From assembly GCA_025356715.1 (NCBI GenBank), contig JANXRU010000426.1, positions 1 to 5,680 on the forward strand: DNA of 5,680 bases, given 5' to 3'. This DNA is from Bacteroidota bacterium (GTDB taxonomy: Bacteria; Bacteroidota; Bacteroidia; B-17B0; B-17BO). Below the pieces are notes generated by a model. The model searched no databases. It had not been told where the DNA came from and worked only from the letters and a program-made list of their open reading frames with translations. The translations under genes and the position numbers were made by a program. Shown here piece by piece: positions 484 to 5,621 of this stretch (position 1 is its first letter; each line of letters begins with the position of its first letter).

Positions 484-720
484 ATGACAACAACAGCCAT
501 TCGGACTAAAGTCCATAAATATATCGACGAGGCAGACAACAACGTATTGGAAGTTATTTATAAATTACTAGAAGTTTATCGTCAAGGCAATGCAAGTTTA
601 TTGACAAATGAACAGCAAAAAGAGGTCCTTAAAAGATTGGCACAATACAAAGCAGGTAAAATGAAAGGATATTCTTTAGCGGAAGTGCGAAAAAGAATAA
701 AGAATAAATTATCTGAATAA
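484..720 (+). CDS. Antitoxin, addiction-module component (Unstab_antitox-like)
   Basis: This 78-residue, charged protein is the likely antitoxin of the toxin encoded one base downstream. The C-terminal half resembles the short 'putative addiction module component' antitoxins common in Bacteroidota: L-T-x-E-Q-Q at 40-45, then RLAQYKAGKMKGYSLAEVRKR (51-71), with the typical Y-x-x-G-K-x-x-G-Y-(S/T)-x-x-E-V pattern. The N-terminus (MTTTAIRTKVHKYIDEAD, then V-x-x-I-Y-K-L-L-E-V) is predicted helical and is a common opening for these proteins. In such systems the C-terminal segment wraps the toxin and blocks it, while proteolysis of the antitoxin frees it. The ATG at 484 is the only sensible start. 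No Shine-Dalgarno sequence is visible, as is usual in this phylum. Family placement is by motif recall; pairing with the toxin is strongly supported by the 1-base spacing. Confidence 0.8.
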   Translation: MTTTAIRTKVHKYIDEADNNVLEVIYKLLEVYRQGNASLLTNEQQKEVLKRLAQYKAGKMKGYSLAEVRKRIKNKLSE

Positions 721-721
721 A

Positions 722-1027
722 ATGGCTTCAAATAAATTAATTATTCTTGAACGAGCTGTATCCGAGCTTGAAGATGCTTGTTTATTCTATAACGAAAAAG
801 TTTCTGGTTTAGGTTTTGAATTCGAAGAGGAAGTCGTTAACTTACTTGAATTGATAAAAGACAATCCATTAATCTTTCCTATCAAATTTGCACATATTCA
901 TGAAGCTGTTATGAAGCGTTTTCCATTCGTTATTAATTATGAGGTTTTTGGAAAGCAAATTATTATTTCGGCAATTTTTCACGTCAAACAAAACCCTGCA
1001 AAAAAAATTACGAGAAAACGAAAATAG
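722..1027 (+). CDS. ParE/RelE-family toxin
   Basis: A 101-residue basic protein with the pattern of the ParE/RelE toxin superfamily. An N-terminal strand and helix (IILERAVSELEDACLFYNEK, 7-26) are followed by G-L-G-x-x-F-x-x-E-V (29-38), then a second helix ending I-x-x-N-P-x-x-F-P (45-53). Next come the strands R-F-P-F-V-I-N-Y (66-73), I-I-I-S-A-I-F-H (80-87) and a basic tail, N-P-A-K-K-I-T-R-K-R-K. The order A-x-x-E-L, G-L-G-x-x-F, N-P-x-x-F-P, F-P-F-x-I-x-Y, A-I-x-H is typical of ParE-like toxins of Bacteroidota. RelE members cut mRNA on the ribosome and ParE members poison gyrase; the sequence alone does not settle which applies. The start ATG follows the antitoxin stop by one base, so translation is probably coupled. 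Length is normal and no damage is seen. Confidence 0.85.
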   Translation: MASNKLIILERAVSELEDACLFYNEKVSGLGFEFEEEVVNLLELIKDNPLIFPIKFAHIHEAVMKRFPFVINYEVFGKQIIISAIFHVKQNPAKKITRKRK

Positions 1028-1232: not shown

Positions 1233-1864
1233 TGAAATAAAGCGCGAAGCCTTTAGTGGTAAGACTATAGCGACACAACGACAACAAACTATGACAATTT
1301 AAGAATAACCCATTGCCAGAAAAAAATAGAACGAAATGAAATATGATTATTAGAGAAGCTAAAATTGACGACATAAAACAAATTCAAATAGTAAGAAATT
1401 CCGTAACCGAAAACACTTTATCAAATCCAAATTTGGTGACAGACGAAGATTGCGAAAACTTTATTACAATGAGAGGAAAAGGTTGGGTGTGTGAAATTGA
1501 CAAACAAATTGTAGGTTTTGCAATTACTGATTTGAAAGAAAATAACATTTGGGCGTTATTTTTAGACCCTAAATTTGAAAGAAGAGGTATTGGACAGCTA
1601 TTACACAACACAATGTTGGACTGGTATTTTACACAAACAAAAGAAAAAGTTTGGTTAGGAACTGCCTTTAATACACGAGCCGAACAGTTTTACAAAAAAG
1701 CAGGATGGACAGAGGTTGGAAAACACGGAACAAAGGAAATTAAATTTGAAATGACATACAATGACTGGATAACAAGCCAGAACCGCTAACATCGGTTTGA
1801 CAAAAGCGGTTTGTCAACACACACTGCAACTGCACAATAGCCACCTTCTCCAAACCGCAAATCG
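1194..1864 (+). mobile_element. Predicted gene cassette 2 (GNAT acetyltransferase)
   Basis: Bounded by predicted cleavage after G1193 and after G1864, this unit holds one forward gene whose stop codon lies inside the left box of its own attC-like site. That tight gene-to-attC packing is typical of integron cassettes, and GNAT acetyltransferases are frequent cassette cargo. Mobility is inferred; no integrase is seen. Confidence 0.45.
1343..1789 (+). CDS. GNAT-family N-acetyltransferase
   Basis: A complete 148-residue GNAT protein, predicted to move an acetyl group from acetyl-CoA to an amine; the substrate is unknown. The N-terminal strand and helix I-I-R-E-A-K-x-D-D-I-x-x-I (2-14) open the fold. 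A central strand, G-W-V-C-E-I-D-K-Q-I-V-G-F-A (47-60), leads to motif A, WALFLDPKFERRGIGQLL (70-87), whose R-R-G-I-G-Q loop binds the acetyl-CoA pyrophosphate. Motif B is N-T-R-A-E-Q-F-Y-K-K-A-G-W-T-E-V-G (110-126), with the conserved tyrosine and A-G-W. The ATG at 1343 puts the first strand at the N-terminus as usual; an ATG at 1336 is out of frame and stops at once. The stop codon overlaps the attC-like site C. The gene may modify a small molecule, a peptide or an antibiotic, but nothing in the sequence favours one of these. Confidence 0.9.
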   Translation: MIIREAKIDDIKQIQIVRNSVTENTLSNPNLVTDEDCENFITMRGKGWVCEIDKQIVGFAITDLKENNIWALFLDPKFERRGIGQLLHNTMLDWYFTQTKEKVWLGTAFNTRAEQFYKKAGWTEVGKHGTKEIKFEMTYNDWITSQNR

Positions 1865-1966: not shown

Positions 1967-3361
1967 TCATAACTTATAATTTAGGTTTCCACTTAAATAA
2001 ATGATATGTAACACAGATTTAATAAACTTTAATTTATACTCTGCTAATTTTAATTCCGACTCCAATAATTTATTTTCGCGCGTATTAATCATAAACACAG
2101 AGCTTTCGCCATTATCAAATTTCAATTTTTCGGCTTCCACTAATTGTTTACCGTAACTTACCGAACGCTCCGCATTTAAAAGCTGTTGTGCCAAAATGGA
2201 TATGGTTTTTTGAAGTGCATTTACCTTAAAGCTTAGTTCATTCGTTTTATTTAATAACTCCAAATTATTGTTTTGAGATACTAACTGAGCCATTTTATAT
2301 TCGTTCCTTGGATTTCTTAACAATAAAGGAAAGGCCATGTTAAGTCCCCATTTGTAATTATTACTTGAAAACACCGCGCTATTAGTCACATTACTATTTG
2401 TTAGGAAATTGTATTTCACATTGAGTACTGGCTTAATCATTTCTTTTTTTAATCTGACATCAACATCCAATACATTTTGCAAGGCCGTATATTTAGATAA
2501 TATAGGATTTTGTATACTTAACAAATTAAGATTCTCCGTTAATACCGATTTTGCCTTGCTATAATATGTATCTAAACTATCGGTTGCCATAAAAGAACTG
2601 GTTAAAGATGCAGGAGTATTGTTTTGCCAAATAAAAGTAGATAGTTCATTGGTGCTTTTTAAATTATCCATCTGCGAATTCTGTAAATCCAATAAACGGG
2701 TTTGATAAAAAATAGCCGCTTCTACCGTATCCACAGATGCTCTTTCGCCAATGTTTGAAAGAGCTTCAATGCCTTGTAAGCGTTTACGAGCAGCATCCAT
2801 AAAATAATTATTAAGAGCTATTTGTTTTGCACTAAATAACCATTCGAAATAACGTTGCGACGATTCAAACAATAAATTATTAAGCTGTATTTGTTGCTCA
2901 GCTGTATAATAATTAACGTACTCTCTTGACTTTAAAATTTCTGCTCGGCGTTTATCAATCATAAGGCCTTGCAAAACACCCACCTCAATACCCATATAAG
3001 GTAAGCCTTGCGAAGAGGTACTTAACTCAGGGCTCACATAGTTTCCAATGCCATAGTCGTAACCTAATTTCAAGTATTGCGATGTAAAAATAGGTTGTTT
3101 AATTTCGCTATTAAGGGTTGTATAATAATTCTTCCCATCAAACTGTTTTTGATCATAGCTTCCACTTATCACTGGATCATAATTTCCACGAGCTGCTTTT
3201 AATTGCAAATCAGCATATTTTTTTTCGTTACCTGCCCGTTTACTTAAAGGATTATTTTGTAAAACATTCGATATAAATTCGTTATAACTAGGTAATAATG
3301 CATTTTGAGAATCAACTACAAAAGCAACCATCAGGAAATAACATACAAAAAGGTTTTTCAT
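1967..3361 (-). CDS. TolC-family outer membrane efflux protein
   Basis: Predicted outer membrane channel of a type I-style export machine, 464 residues, second gene of the operon. I place the start at the ATG at 3361. It gives the hydrophobic signal peptide MKNLFVCYFLMVAFVVDSQN and begins one base after the stop of the upstream gene; the longer in-frame reading up to 3463 would overlap that gene and bury the signal peptide. The mature part shows the TolC double-repeat plan. The first half has long helices with L-K-A-A-R-G-N-Y-D-P-V-I-S (54-66) leading to a strand segment. The second half has M-I-K-P-V-L-N-V-K-Y-N-F (308-319), W-G-L-N-M-A-F-P-L-L-L-R-N-P (338-351) and K-L-K-F-D-N-G-E-S-S-V-F-M-I-N-T-R-E-N (412-430), the usual turn-and-helix signature of the family. 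It probably trimerises and docks on the adaptor encoded upstream. The C-terminus ends in Leu, not the common terminal aromatic residue. Codon spacing suggests co-translation with the upstream gene. Confidence 0.88.
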   Translation of the reverse strand: MKNLFVCYFLMVAFVVDSQNALLPSYNEFISNVLQNNPLSKRAGNEKKYADLQLKAARGNYDPVISGSYDQKQFDGKNYYTTLNSEIKQPIFTSQYLKLGYDYGIGNYVSPELSTSSQGLPYMGIEVGVLQGLMIDKRRAEILKSREYVNYYTAEQQIQLNNLLFESSQRYFEWLFSAKQIALNNYFMDAARKRLQGIEALSNIGERASVDTVEAAIFYQTRLLDLQNSQMDNLKSTNELSTFIWQNNTPASLTSSFMATDSLDTYYSKAKSVLTENLNLLSIQNPILSKYTALQNVLDVDVRLKKEMIKPVLNVKYNFLTNSNVTNSAVFSSNNYKWGLNMAFPLLLRNPRNEYKMAQLVSQNNNLELLNKTNELSFKVNALQKTISILAQQLLNAERSVSYGKQLVEAEKLKFDNGESSVFMINTRENKLLESELKLAEYKLKFIKSVLHIIYLSGNLNYKL

Positions 3362-3362
3362 A

Positions 3363-5621
3363 TTATTTCTTTTTACTAGTTGTTTTAGCATTGCTGGTTG
3401 TTTCATAAAATTCGGGAGGAAAGCCGTTAACAATTCGCCACAGTTCATAAAAGAGTGGTACATTTTTTAACAAAGCAAATCCTTTAACGCCTCCACCAAT
3501 TTGAATGGCATCAGGCCATTTCTGCCCAACATTTTTTGCTAATACTCTAAACTTTCCGTTATCGGAAAGGACTTTATCATAGGCTACAATTTCTGCAGTA
3601 TAAGTTCCATAACTAACGCCTGGCCAACCAGAAAAAACAAAAGCCGGCCAACCATCAAACTGCAATTGTACTTTTTGTCCTTTCTGTATCAACGGCAAAT
3701 CAACGGGTGCTATATATAACTCTACGGCTTGCTCATTTTGCTTAGGCACTATATTACATAAAGCAGCGCCTTCTTTTATAATCTCACCAATACCTTGCAC
3801 ATCTGTTTTAGCAATATAACCGTCCTGAGGCGCCAATACATAATAAAACCCCTGGCGCATGGTATAATTTGCTAATTGATTTTGCAATTTGGTAAGCGAC
3901 CCTTCACCATCATACAACAATGAAAGTGCAGAAAATTTATCAGATTCCGTTTTCATTAACTTCTCTTGATAATCTTGTTTAATAGAATTCAATTCTATTT
4001 CAGCATTTAAAAAATCATTTTTAGTTGATATGAATTTATTATCGGCTGATGTTTTCTTAGATAAGGCATCTTGCACCTTCACGCGCCTATTCTCCAAATC
4101 CGTTTTCGAAATTACTCCTTTGCTCATTAATTCTTCATAACGTTTCAATTGTTCTTCAGCTACTTTGTAATTAACGTTGGAAGAACTTGCTTCCATACTA
4201 TCGGTTGCTATTTTTATTTTAGCCTGAATAATTTTATTACGCCCTTGTTCCATCTTCAAAAGCAACGATTTATTTAAAGCATCTATTTGAGAATCTACAG
4301 CTGTTATTTTATCCTCGTAAGATTTAATGGTTGTTTCTTTTGCTTTAATAATAGATTCTGATCGGCCTATTAATTGTGGGTCAACGTACTCTTCTTTAAT
4401 TTCTGAAATAAAAGCGATGGTATCATTCTTATTCACATAATCGCCTTCACGGATATACCATTTTTCTACCCGACCTGCAATACGTGATGTAATGGTTTGA
4501 GGCCTGTTTTCAGGATTAAGAGTCGTTACCTTCCCATTCGAGTCCACACTTTGAGTCCATGGCATCAGTAATATAACAAAGCCCGTGAAAAACATCGTGA
4601 AAATGGCATATTTTACTACTTTGGAATAAGGCCTAGAATAGATGTTCTTTGTGCTATCAAGATTTTTTGTTTTTTCAGCAAGCATCGAAAAATCGGTTTG
4701 CTCACCAAATATTCCTTCAATCTTATACAGCGCGGTTACAATATCATACCAAGTATTTAAACTATCAACCAATTTTTCAACTGAATTAATCACTAAAAAA
4801 ATAATGATTTCAGAGGCTACAAACTGCCCAATGTTCAATTCGCCTATCTGCACAAGATAAGCCCCAAAAAAAAGTAATATCCCTACAAATAAAATTTTAA
4901 AAATAATAATGCCTTTAAATTGTGATTCGAGCACATGAAAATGCTTACTACGATTCGTAAAAAAATGATGGAGATTAATTTCCGTTCCTGCTGTTATCCC
5001 TTGATTTTGCTTTTCAAAAGAACTCTTTTGCAAATAATCAAATAAGGCATATTTTTTATTAGACGCTTCTATATTTGTTTCTATCCCTTTCTTACCATAA
5101 TACCGAATAATAAAATAAAATACCGAGCCTAATAATATGGTAAAAATTAAAAACCAAGAGCTATATATAGGTAGTATTAACAAACCAAACACGAGGCTTA
5201 TAATGGAAAAAGAAAAATCCAATAAAATTTTACTAATCCCTTTCTGAAGCGTAATTACTTCAAAAAACTTATTTAAACTATAAATAGTTTCAGAAGAAGG
5301 TTCTTTTTTCTCTAAGAAATTATTCACTCTTGATACCATATCACCAAATACCTTTTGGTTAAGTGTTTCATTAATACGCATCTGCCACAATTGAAAAAAA
5401 CCAATAAAAGCAGTAACAATAATAGTAATGGCTATCAATACTATTAAAGAAGCGGAAAAACTGCCTGCCATAATATAAGTAATGATTCCTTGTATTCCCA
5501 AAGGAATAGCCAAATACATCAAGCCCTGTAAAATTGATAAAAAATATATTTTATAAATGATTGTCCGTTCTTTGATTAACCATTTAAAAAGCAAACTAGA
5601 CTTATTGATGTTTTTATCCAT
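3363..5621 (-). CDS. Fused ABC-exporter membrane domain and HlyD-type adaptor, no ATPase domain
   Basis: A 752-residue two-part protein. Residues 1 to about 305 form an ABC type-1 exporter membrane domain: hydrophobic helices near 23-45, 55-79, 133-150, 153-173, 237-257 and 262-282, and the typical sixth-helix segment G-E-L-N-I-G-Q-F-V-A-S-E-I-I-I (260-274). Where the nucleotide-binding domain should begin there is only a short linker (306-333). Then a seventh helix (335-354) is followed by a HlyD/membrane-fusion protein. The first lipoyl half is I-T-S-R-I-A-G-R-V-E-K-W-Y-I-R-E-G-D-Y-V (377-396), a long coiled-coil hairpin spans about 420-590, and the second lipoyl half is Y-V-L-A-P-Q-D-G-Y-I-A-K (594-605). 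A beta-barrel with L-Q-F-D-G-W-P-A-F-V-F-S-G-W-P (653-667) and a Lys-rich tail complete it. No Walker A, ABC signature or Walker B is present. Seven helices put the N-terminus in the cytoplasm and the adaptor in the periplasm, so the topology is coherent. The ATG at 5621 has an A-rich leader. TolC-family gene follows after one base. It may pair with a separate ABC protein; substrate unknown. A natural in-frame deletion is the main alternative origin. Confidence 0.85.
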   Translation of the reverse strand: MDKNINKSSLLFKWLIKERTIIYKIYFLSILQGLMYLAIPLGIQGIITYIMAGSFSASLIVLIAITIIVTAFIGFFQLWQMRINETLNQKVFGDMVSRVNNFLEKKEPSSETIYSLNKFFEVITLQKGISKILLDFSFSIISLVFGLLILPIYSSWFLIFTILLGSVFYFIIRYYGKKGIETNIEASNKKYALFDYLQKSSFEKQNQGITAGTEINLHHFFTNRSKHFHVLESQFKGIIIFKILFVGILLFFGAYLVQIGELNIGQFVASEIIIFLVINSVEKLVDSLNTWYDIVTALYKIEGIFGEQTDFSMLAEKTKNLDSTKNIYSRPYSKVVKYAIFTMFFTGFVILLMPWTQSVDSNGKVTTLNPENRPQTITSRIAGRVEKWYIREGDYVNKNDTIAFISEIKEEYVDPQLIGRSESIIKAKETTIKSYEDKITAVDSQIDALNKSLLLKMEQGRNKIIQAKIKIATDSMEASSSNVNYKVAEEQLKRYEELMSKGVISKTDLENRRVKVQDALSKKTSADNKFISTKNDFLNAEIELNSIKQDYQEKLMKTESDKFSALSLLYDGEGSLTKLQNQLANYTMRQGFYYVLAPQDGYIAKTDVQGIGEIIKEGAALCNIVPKQNEQAVELYIAPVDLPLIQKGQKVQLQFDGWPAFVFSGWPGVSYGTYTAEIVAYDKVLSDNGKFRVLAKNVGQKWPDAIQIGGGVKGFALLKNVPLFYELWRIVNGFPPEFYETTSNAKTTSKKK

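Follow-up and report, generated by a model that had tools for sequence, protein, structure and literature searches.

Related transport systems

ABC transporters are defined by their ATPase, and in canonical exporters the nucleotide-binding domain (NBD) docks on the tips of two intracellular loops of the membrane domain (TMD). The fold is also found in CFTR, an example of an ABC-fold channel, and in SUR1, which is a channel-regulating ABC protein. Protons are used by the tripartite EmrAB-TolC pump. For the NBD-less domain LmrA-MD, Glu314 in TM6 is reported to be needed for pH-gradient-driven transport (PMC2704374, PMC6155054), and ATP-free transport by the NBD-less domain of MsbA (MsbA-MD) is also reported (PMC4979069). 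SbmA is a natural proton-driven importer which is said to descend from full ABC transporters, to have lost its NBD and coupling helices and to use a glutamate ladder (PMC13316013). In the HlyB-HlyD system, three HlyB dimers are reported for six HlyD chains (PMC11026475).

The locus described here lies in a window of 5,680 nucleotides (the whole stretch of DNA analysed) from a Bacteroidota bacterium, and encodes a 752 aa protein (3363..5621, minus strand) in which an ABC-exporter TMD is fused to a periplasmic adaptor. Like the HlyB-HlyD-TolC system, it combines an ABC-exporter TMD, a HlyD-type adaptor and TolC, whereas HlyB is ATP-driven and a chain separate from HlyD (PMC11026475, PMC8277102). 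In terms of the parts that make up type I secretion systems and ABC tripartite exporters, the TMD, the HlyD-type adaptor and TolC are present and the NBD motifs are absent. The adaptor is most like EmrA, part of an ATP-free tripartite MFS-type pump; however, the inner-membrane part of EmrAB-TolC is an MFS protein and that of the fusion an ABC-type TMD. LmrA-MD and MsbA-MD are likewise NBD-less ABC exporter TMDs, homodimeric as the fusion would be, and proton- or ion-coupled transport is reported for them, but they are engineered and have no adaptor.

The nearest precedent is SbmA. SbmA/BacA proteins (SLiPT) share with the fusion a type IV ABC membrane fold without an NBD and conserved acidic residues, some of which are, in both cases, already there in NBD-bearing relatives (PMC13316013). 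They differ in being importers with an extra TM0 domain and neither adaptor nor TolC, and SbmA is described as having lost its coupling helices (PMC13316013). The loops of the fusion are shortened by about 4 and 5-7 residues and are variable, and its conserved acidic residues are invariant E85 and E271, near-invariant E282 and D/E135. The fusion family resembles SbmA in its route, has no Pfam membership in that family and sits on the export side, with an adaptor and TolC.

Architecture of the fusion gene

The fusion protein consists, in order, of the TMD, a linker, a seventh membrane helix and a complete HlyD/EmrA-type adaptor. The TMD (residues 1-305; 4707..5621, minus strand) has six helices and was recognised by Pfam, the structure model and fold match. 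ABC_membrane was the sole Pfam family among its matches up to E 10, SbmA_BacA not being matched within that limit, and ABC_tran was absent from the fusion protein in the Pfam scan. Fold match and Pfam identify it as a type IV ABC exporter membrane fold; SUR1 was the top fold match, with many exporters within a few Z units. The tips of intracellular loop 1 (residues 96-117; 5271..5336, minus strand) and loop 2 (residues 196-213; 4983..5036, minus strand) are shortened and variable in fusions. The linker (residues 306-333; 4623..4706, minus strand) occupies the site of the lost NBD, as judged from the structure model and from alignment against NBD-bearing relatives, and leads into the seventh helix (residues 334-352; 4566..4622, minus strand), which the structure model gives as the anchor of the adaptor. 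The adaptor itself (residues 353-752; 3363..4565, minus strand) was identified by Pfam and by fold match, the closest being EmrA, and carries a modelled alpha-hairpin (residues 415-584; 3870..4379, minus strand). The structure model is of a single chain and was built from 120 sequences, replacing a 26-sequence model (pLDDT 61.8). Among PDB sequences, phmmer detected nothing significant (best E 0.033), and a profile made from seven TMDs likewise had no match at 1e-10, which left Glu271 and Glu282 without an alignment to MsbA or LmrA.

Walker A was found in none of 145 non-redundant fusions, and the NBD is missing in all 145. The initial annotation of this locus, which reported a membrane domain fused to an adaptor with the ATPase domain missing, is confirmed on both points, full-length fusions being carried by 34 of the 87 genomes examined from a single order.

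Genomic context

A TolC-family outer membrane protein (1967..3361, minus strand; OEP domain 86.6 bits, cut-off 22) is encoded directly downstream of the fusion, as it is in all 42 distinct loci. A divergent TetR-family gene lies no more than 700 bases away in 29 of the 35 fusion loci with at least 600 upstream bases, and TetR_N was confirmed for the neighbour gene of the close homologue L001. As the window reaches no more than 59 bases beyond the start of the fusion, such a gene there would be out of view. The operon is probably under the control of its TetR-family neighbour. Control by TetR-family proteins is common in pumps for toxic small molecules, and this neighbour may indicate that the substrates are small toxic compounds or resemble lipids.

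A near-palindrome, TAGTA-N-TACTA (variants allowed), was seen in 16 of 17 upstream regions between the TetR and fusion genes (loci L002-L034 and L040) and is a likely operator of the TetR protein. L001 had no strict match, and the window stops before that region.

Elsewhere in the window, two adjacent small genes (484-1027, plus strand) resemble a RelB/ParE-type toxin-antitoxin pair; the antitoxin matched Unstab_antitox at 23.8 bits (cut-off 23.3) and the toxin ParE_toxin at 17.4 bits, under the cut-off of 23. Imperfect direct repeats at 212-336 and 1107-1224, which match at 77-93% in stretches of 15-56 bases and are spaced by about 890 bases, flank this pair, as mobile cassettes might be flanked. 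A GNAT-family acetyltransferase gene (1343-1789, plus strand; Acetyltransf_1, 50.5 bits) follows. Positions 1782-1872 were assessed as a possible cassette recombination site, an idea rejected because their single-strand fold is no better than shuffles (z -0.31). Rfam gave no match anywhere in the window.

Distribution and selection

When about 5.8 billion proteins were searched with the fusion, 7994 candidates were scored and 606 of them were homologues at E <= 1e-3; the best 120 are 700-756 aa long and cover 93-100% of it. With the divergent member L082 as query, 941 homologues were found at E <= 1e-20, and the best 120 of these are 717-781 aa long. Matches occurred in 48 of the 87 genomes of the order, of which 34 have, by reading of the match table, a full-length fusion; the rest comprise nine with separate genes, two with fusions cut by contig ends (G041, G045) and three that are ambiguous (G034, G042, G050). 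Among 395 sampled genomes of the class the adaptor family is present in 194, with 11 fusions among the matches listed, and among 395 genomes of the phylum 97 match, the centre genome holding the sole fusion among the matches listed. Wherever the title or organism name of a fused record was examined, the record was a metagenome-assembled genome (MAG).

Between the window and L001 (87% identical), dN/dS by the Nei-Gojobori method is 0.056 overall, 0.048 for the TMD core, 0.040 for the adaptor, 0.139 for the linker and 0.111 for the loop tips, all of these values being approximate with dS above 1. The fusion is thus under purifying selection, which agrees, together with the intact frame of TolC, with the earlier view that the gene is not decaying. 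The initial annotation had also raised the questions of whether the fusion is unique to one assembly and whether close relatives all have two full-length genes; it recurs at full length in 34 of 87 genomes and over 93-100% of the sequence in the best 120 homologues, and the close relatives are fused. An assembly or frame artefact, or a gene in decay, could at most appeal to the stop inside the aligned stretch of one of the 34 full-length fusions (G046). It is set against the occurrence in 34 of 87 genomes and in the best 120 homologues of both searches, the purifying selection and the downstream TolC in 42 of 42 loci; its probability is negligible and it was ruled out. The stop in G046 is a TAA at G046:C6:19045-21279 (L024) and may be a sequencing error, an alignment overrun or a broken copy.

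Two-gene relatives and degeneration of the NBD

Across the class, the split arrangement is ABC protein, adaptor and TolC, often with a TetR gene in front. Split relatives were traced from the nine separate-gene genomes and 120 further loci, and 135 loci were sorted into six fusions, six that were dropped (L123, L203, L212 and L236 with an ABC frame under 480 aa; L167 and L178 with no adaptor frame) and 123 complete ABC proteins, all distinct though some are close kin. A TolC-like frame accompanies 120 of the 123 and a TetR-like frame 75. Controls were 29 of 30 exporters from eight fusion genomes, L049 being dropped as too short.

At the aligned positions, Walker A is present in 96/123 split proteins and 29/29 controls, whereas the remaining motifs are largely gone from the split proteins: the Q-loop is found in 7/123 (controls 29/29), a canonical signature motif in 0/123 (23/29), the Walker B Asp in 29/123 (29/29), the catalytic Glu in 19/123 (22/29) and the H-loop in 8/123 (29/29). 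The full set of motifs occurs in none of the 123, while 16 of the 29 controls pass every strict pattern. When 8000 relatives of the split protein L131 were scored and the best 120 examined for NBD motifs, 118 had Walker A and none the signature. From these motif counts, the split family appears mostly to retain the phosphate-binding loop without what hydrolysis needs. A distant group in the phylum, with adaptors 31-37% identical to that of the window, has Walker A in 16/16, the Walker B Asp-Glu in 14/16, the H-loop His in 13/16 and the near-signature LSTG[QE] in 5/16. By these motifs its NBD is nearer canonical than that of the split family. The fusion has the appearance of a last stage in NBD decay.

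The split relatives resemble TmrAB-type exporters with one degenerate site, in which degenerate NBD motifs occur in working complexes (PMC8277102). They are unlike TmrAB in that nearly all catalytic motifs are lost in one chain, and the fusion has no NBD; unlike TmrAB-type pairs, too, 119 of the 123 split loci show no second ABC gene in the fetched flank. In the other four (L205, L207, L222 and L234), the degenerate gene is closely preceded by one for a canonical ABC exporter, which has LSGGQ, measures about 600 aa in the complete cases and might be a partner in those genomes. Some split loci (L074-L077, L079, L081 and others) have ABC frames of about 670-770 aa with an extra N-terminal stretch of about 150 residues, which had no Pfam match in the three scanned (L074, L079, L217) and may be what is left of a C39-like peptidase domain.

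In an adaptor tree of 164 rows (quick search, SH-aLRT support only), 41 fusions form one side of a branch with support 100, and the Walker-A-less label changes 11 times, at least six of these being forced. In a TMD tree made with the loop tips left out and with the controls as root, the family holds together as a single group (support 100) and the fused label requires two changes, one forced. We read these trees as suggesting that the fusion arose once, because of the adaptor tree, the stronger witness of the two, and that Walker A was lost repeatedly.

NBD-docking loops

The docking loops are among the least conserved parts of the TMD in fusions. Mean within-group variability rank at the tips is 0.82 in fusions (n=145), 0.53 in splits (n=123) and 0.43 in controls (n=29); splits that have Walker A stand at 0.49 and those lacking it at 0.62. 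When the tip mask was moved round the domain, the fused-minus-split difference was reached in 1/309 shifts, fused-minus-control in 2/309 and split-without minus split-with Walker A in 2/309, while the split-minus-control difference was not unusual (57/309); the tip ranges were chosen after the block table had been seen, and the shift test is therefore not blind. Length follows the same pattern: loop 1 has 30 residues in 127/145 fusions, 34 in 117/123 splits and 35 in 29/29 controls, and loop 2 has 35 or 37 in 117/145 fusions and 42 in 119/123 splits and 29/29 controls. Two other inter-helix spacings are constant across the groups (38 and 46), and the distant group has loop lengths of 34 and 42 in 16/16.

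These loops bear on the suggestion that the TMD is powered in trans, by the docking of either a separate NBD or a complete ABC exporter made elsewhere. Candidates are plentiful, as each of eight fusion genomes has 4-8 ABC_membrane matches, mostly full exporters (the fusion itself is among them in six of the eight), and 12-27 NBD matches, and a canonical ABC gene stands just upstream in 4 of 123 split loci. However, a separate working ATPase should keep the docking tips conserved, and their erosion to short and variable loops in fusions argues against one. With the split-family NBD as query, no family-like NBD was found among the matches listed in the eight draft genomes; the best matches were ordinary exporters at about 30% identity, and the best stand-alone NBD listed was 27% identical (61 bits). 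Of seven fusion loci with 3 kb on both sides, only that of L082 has an ABC ATPase, a 611 aa protein with two Walker A motifs that is unlike the ABC proteins of the split family. An ATPase in trans is accordingly improbable. Heterodimerisation with an adjacent canonical ABC protein was rejected as a rule, just 4 of the 123 split loci having one in the fetched flank, as was a displaced NBD gene, none of the family type being among the matches listed in the eight draft genomes. As the genomes are mostly drafts, the state of the docking loops is stronger evidence than the absence of a partner. While the initial annotation stood as to the fusion, the absent ATPase, the lack of decay and the intact TolC, its proposal of pairing with a full exporter or a separate ATPase is not borne out by these loops and genomes.

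Conserved charged residues

Residues E85, K127, K190, E271 and K283 are invariant in the 145 fusions and the 123 splits, E282 is invariant in the fusions and present in 120/123 splits, and position 135 is D/E. None of the first six is the common residue in controls. E271 sits in a hydrophobic stretch of TM6 according to hydropathy and the model helix. Since most proteins of the distant group, whose NBD is near-canonical, carry these glutamates (E271 in 15/16, E282 in 14/16), the conserved acidic residues are older than the NBD decay and no new gain.

The main rival to the reading that we favour, an ATP-independent exporter, is that the TMD no longer transports and forms a dimeric membrane base which assembles and spaces adaptors under TolC. 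Substrate would then be supplied by way of the periplasm or the outer leaflet, or by a different pump of the inner membrane, and the fold would have been kept for a structural or sensory role like that of SUR1. That SUR1 is the top fold match speaks for this, though it leads many exporters by no more than a few Z units; loss of the NBD would then require no new energy source, and the adaptor is conserved like the TMD core (dN/dS 0.040 and 0.048). On the other hand, charges that are buried and invariant over 145 fusions and 123 splits would be superfluous in a mere anchor, and ordinary adaptors are anchored by one helix, which the fusion has too. Such a scaffold is a serious possibility, though an unlikely one. 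Conserved buried charges could, for their part, serve assembly instead of transport, a point that, like the presence of the glutamates in the distant group, counts against an ATP-independent, ion-driven exporter.

A passive or gated channel, with the NBD-less TMD as a pore into the adaptor-TolC duct and without coupled transport, would fit the ion conductance reported for LmrA-MD in bilayers. An open duct through both membranes would, however, be costly, and we regard a channel as very improbable.

A proposed ATP-independent tripartite exporter

The best reading, to which we give an even chance, is that of an ATP-independent, ABC-derived tripartite exporter, probably ion-driven; it is favoured by the loss of the NBD in all 145 fusions under purifying selection, the degenerate NBD of the two-gene relatives, the eroded docking loops, the invariant charges and the precedents for transport by NBD-less ABC TMDs in LmrA-MD, MsbA-MD and SbmA. 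We infer strongly that no ATP is hydrolysed at the fusion TMD, and infer with moderate confidence that this TMD still transports and is ion-driven. In the proposed scheme, an ABC exporter would have lost its ATPase stepwise and merged with its own adaptor. The TMDs would pair two fused chains into a dimer, and three dimers, by analogy with HlyB-HlyD, would form a ring of six adaptors beneath TolC, with the tether fixing the ratio at 1:1. No NBD would dock on the TMD; instead an ion gradient, in all likelihood one of protons, would power the cycle that moves the substrate, acting through the buried acidic residues Glu271 and Glu282 (TM6) and Asp/Glu135 (TM3). The substrate would leave through the adaptor and then TolC. 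As HlyB and HlyD occur in a 1:1 ratio, a 1:1 fusion would keep that ratio, and the tethering at fixed stoichiometry suggested in the initial annotation fits, by this analogy, with three HlyB dimers and six HlyD (PMC11026475).

Implications

A natural ABC exporter turned into a secondary, ion-driven exporter, tethered to its adaptor and feeding TolC, would represent a new power class; we put this forward tentatively, at somewhat under an even chance. Searches of open-licence literature for ABC exporters that lack an NBD or are inactive and go with an adaptor, whether from Bacteroidetes or in fused form, returned no paper on this system, the sole hit being a genome annotation paper; this is weak evidence of absence. 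If the proposal is true, the NBD-less tripartite exporter would be the export-side counterpart of SbmA, and living relatives would preserve the route to it, from a near-canonical NBD through a dead NBD and loss of Walker A to deletion of the NBD with fusion of the genes. A system made by evolution would also make the debate on NBD-independent transport by LmrA and MsbA testable. Many exporters named in databases as ATP-binding have dead-looking ATPase sites, and since the adaptor family is present in 194 of 395 class genomes and none of 123 split proteins has a canonical signature, the annotation as ATP-driven is, on sequence grounds, probably wrong for many adaptor-associated ABC proteins.
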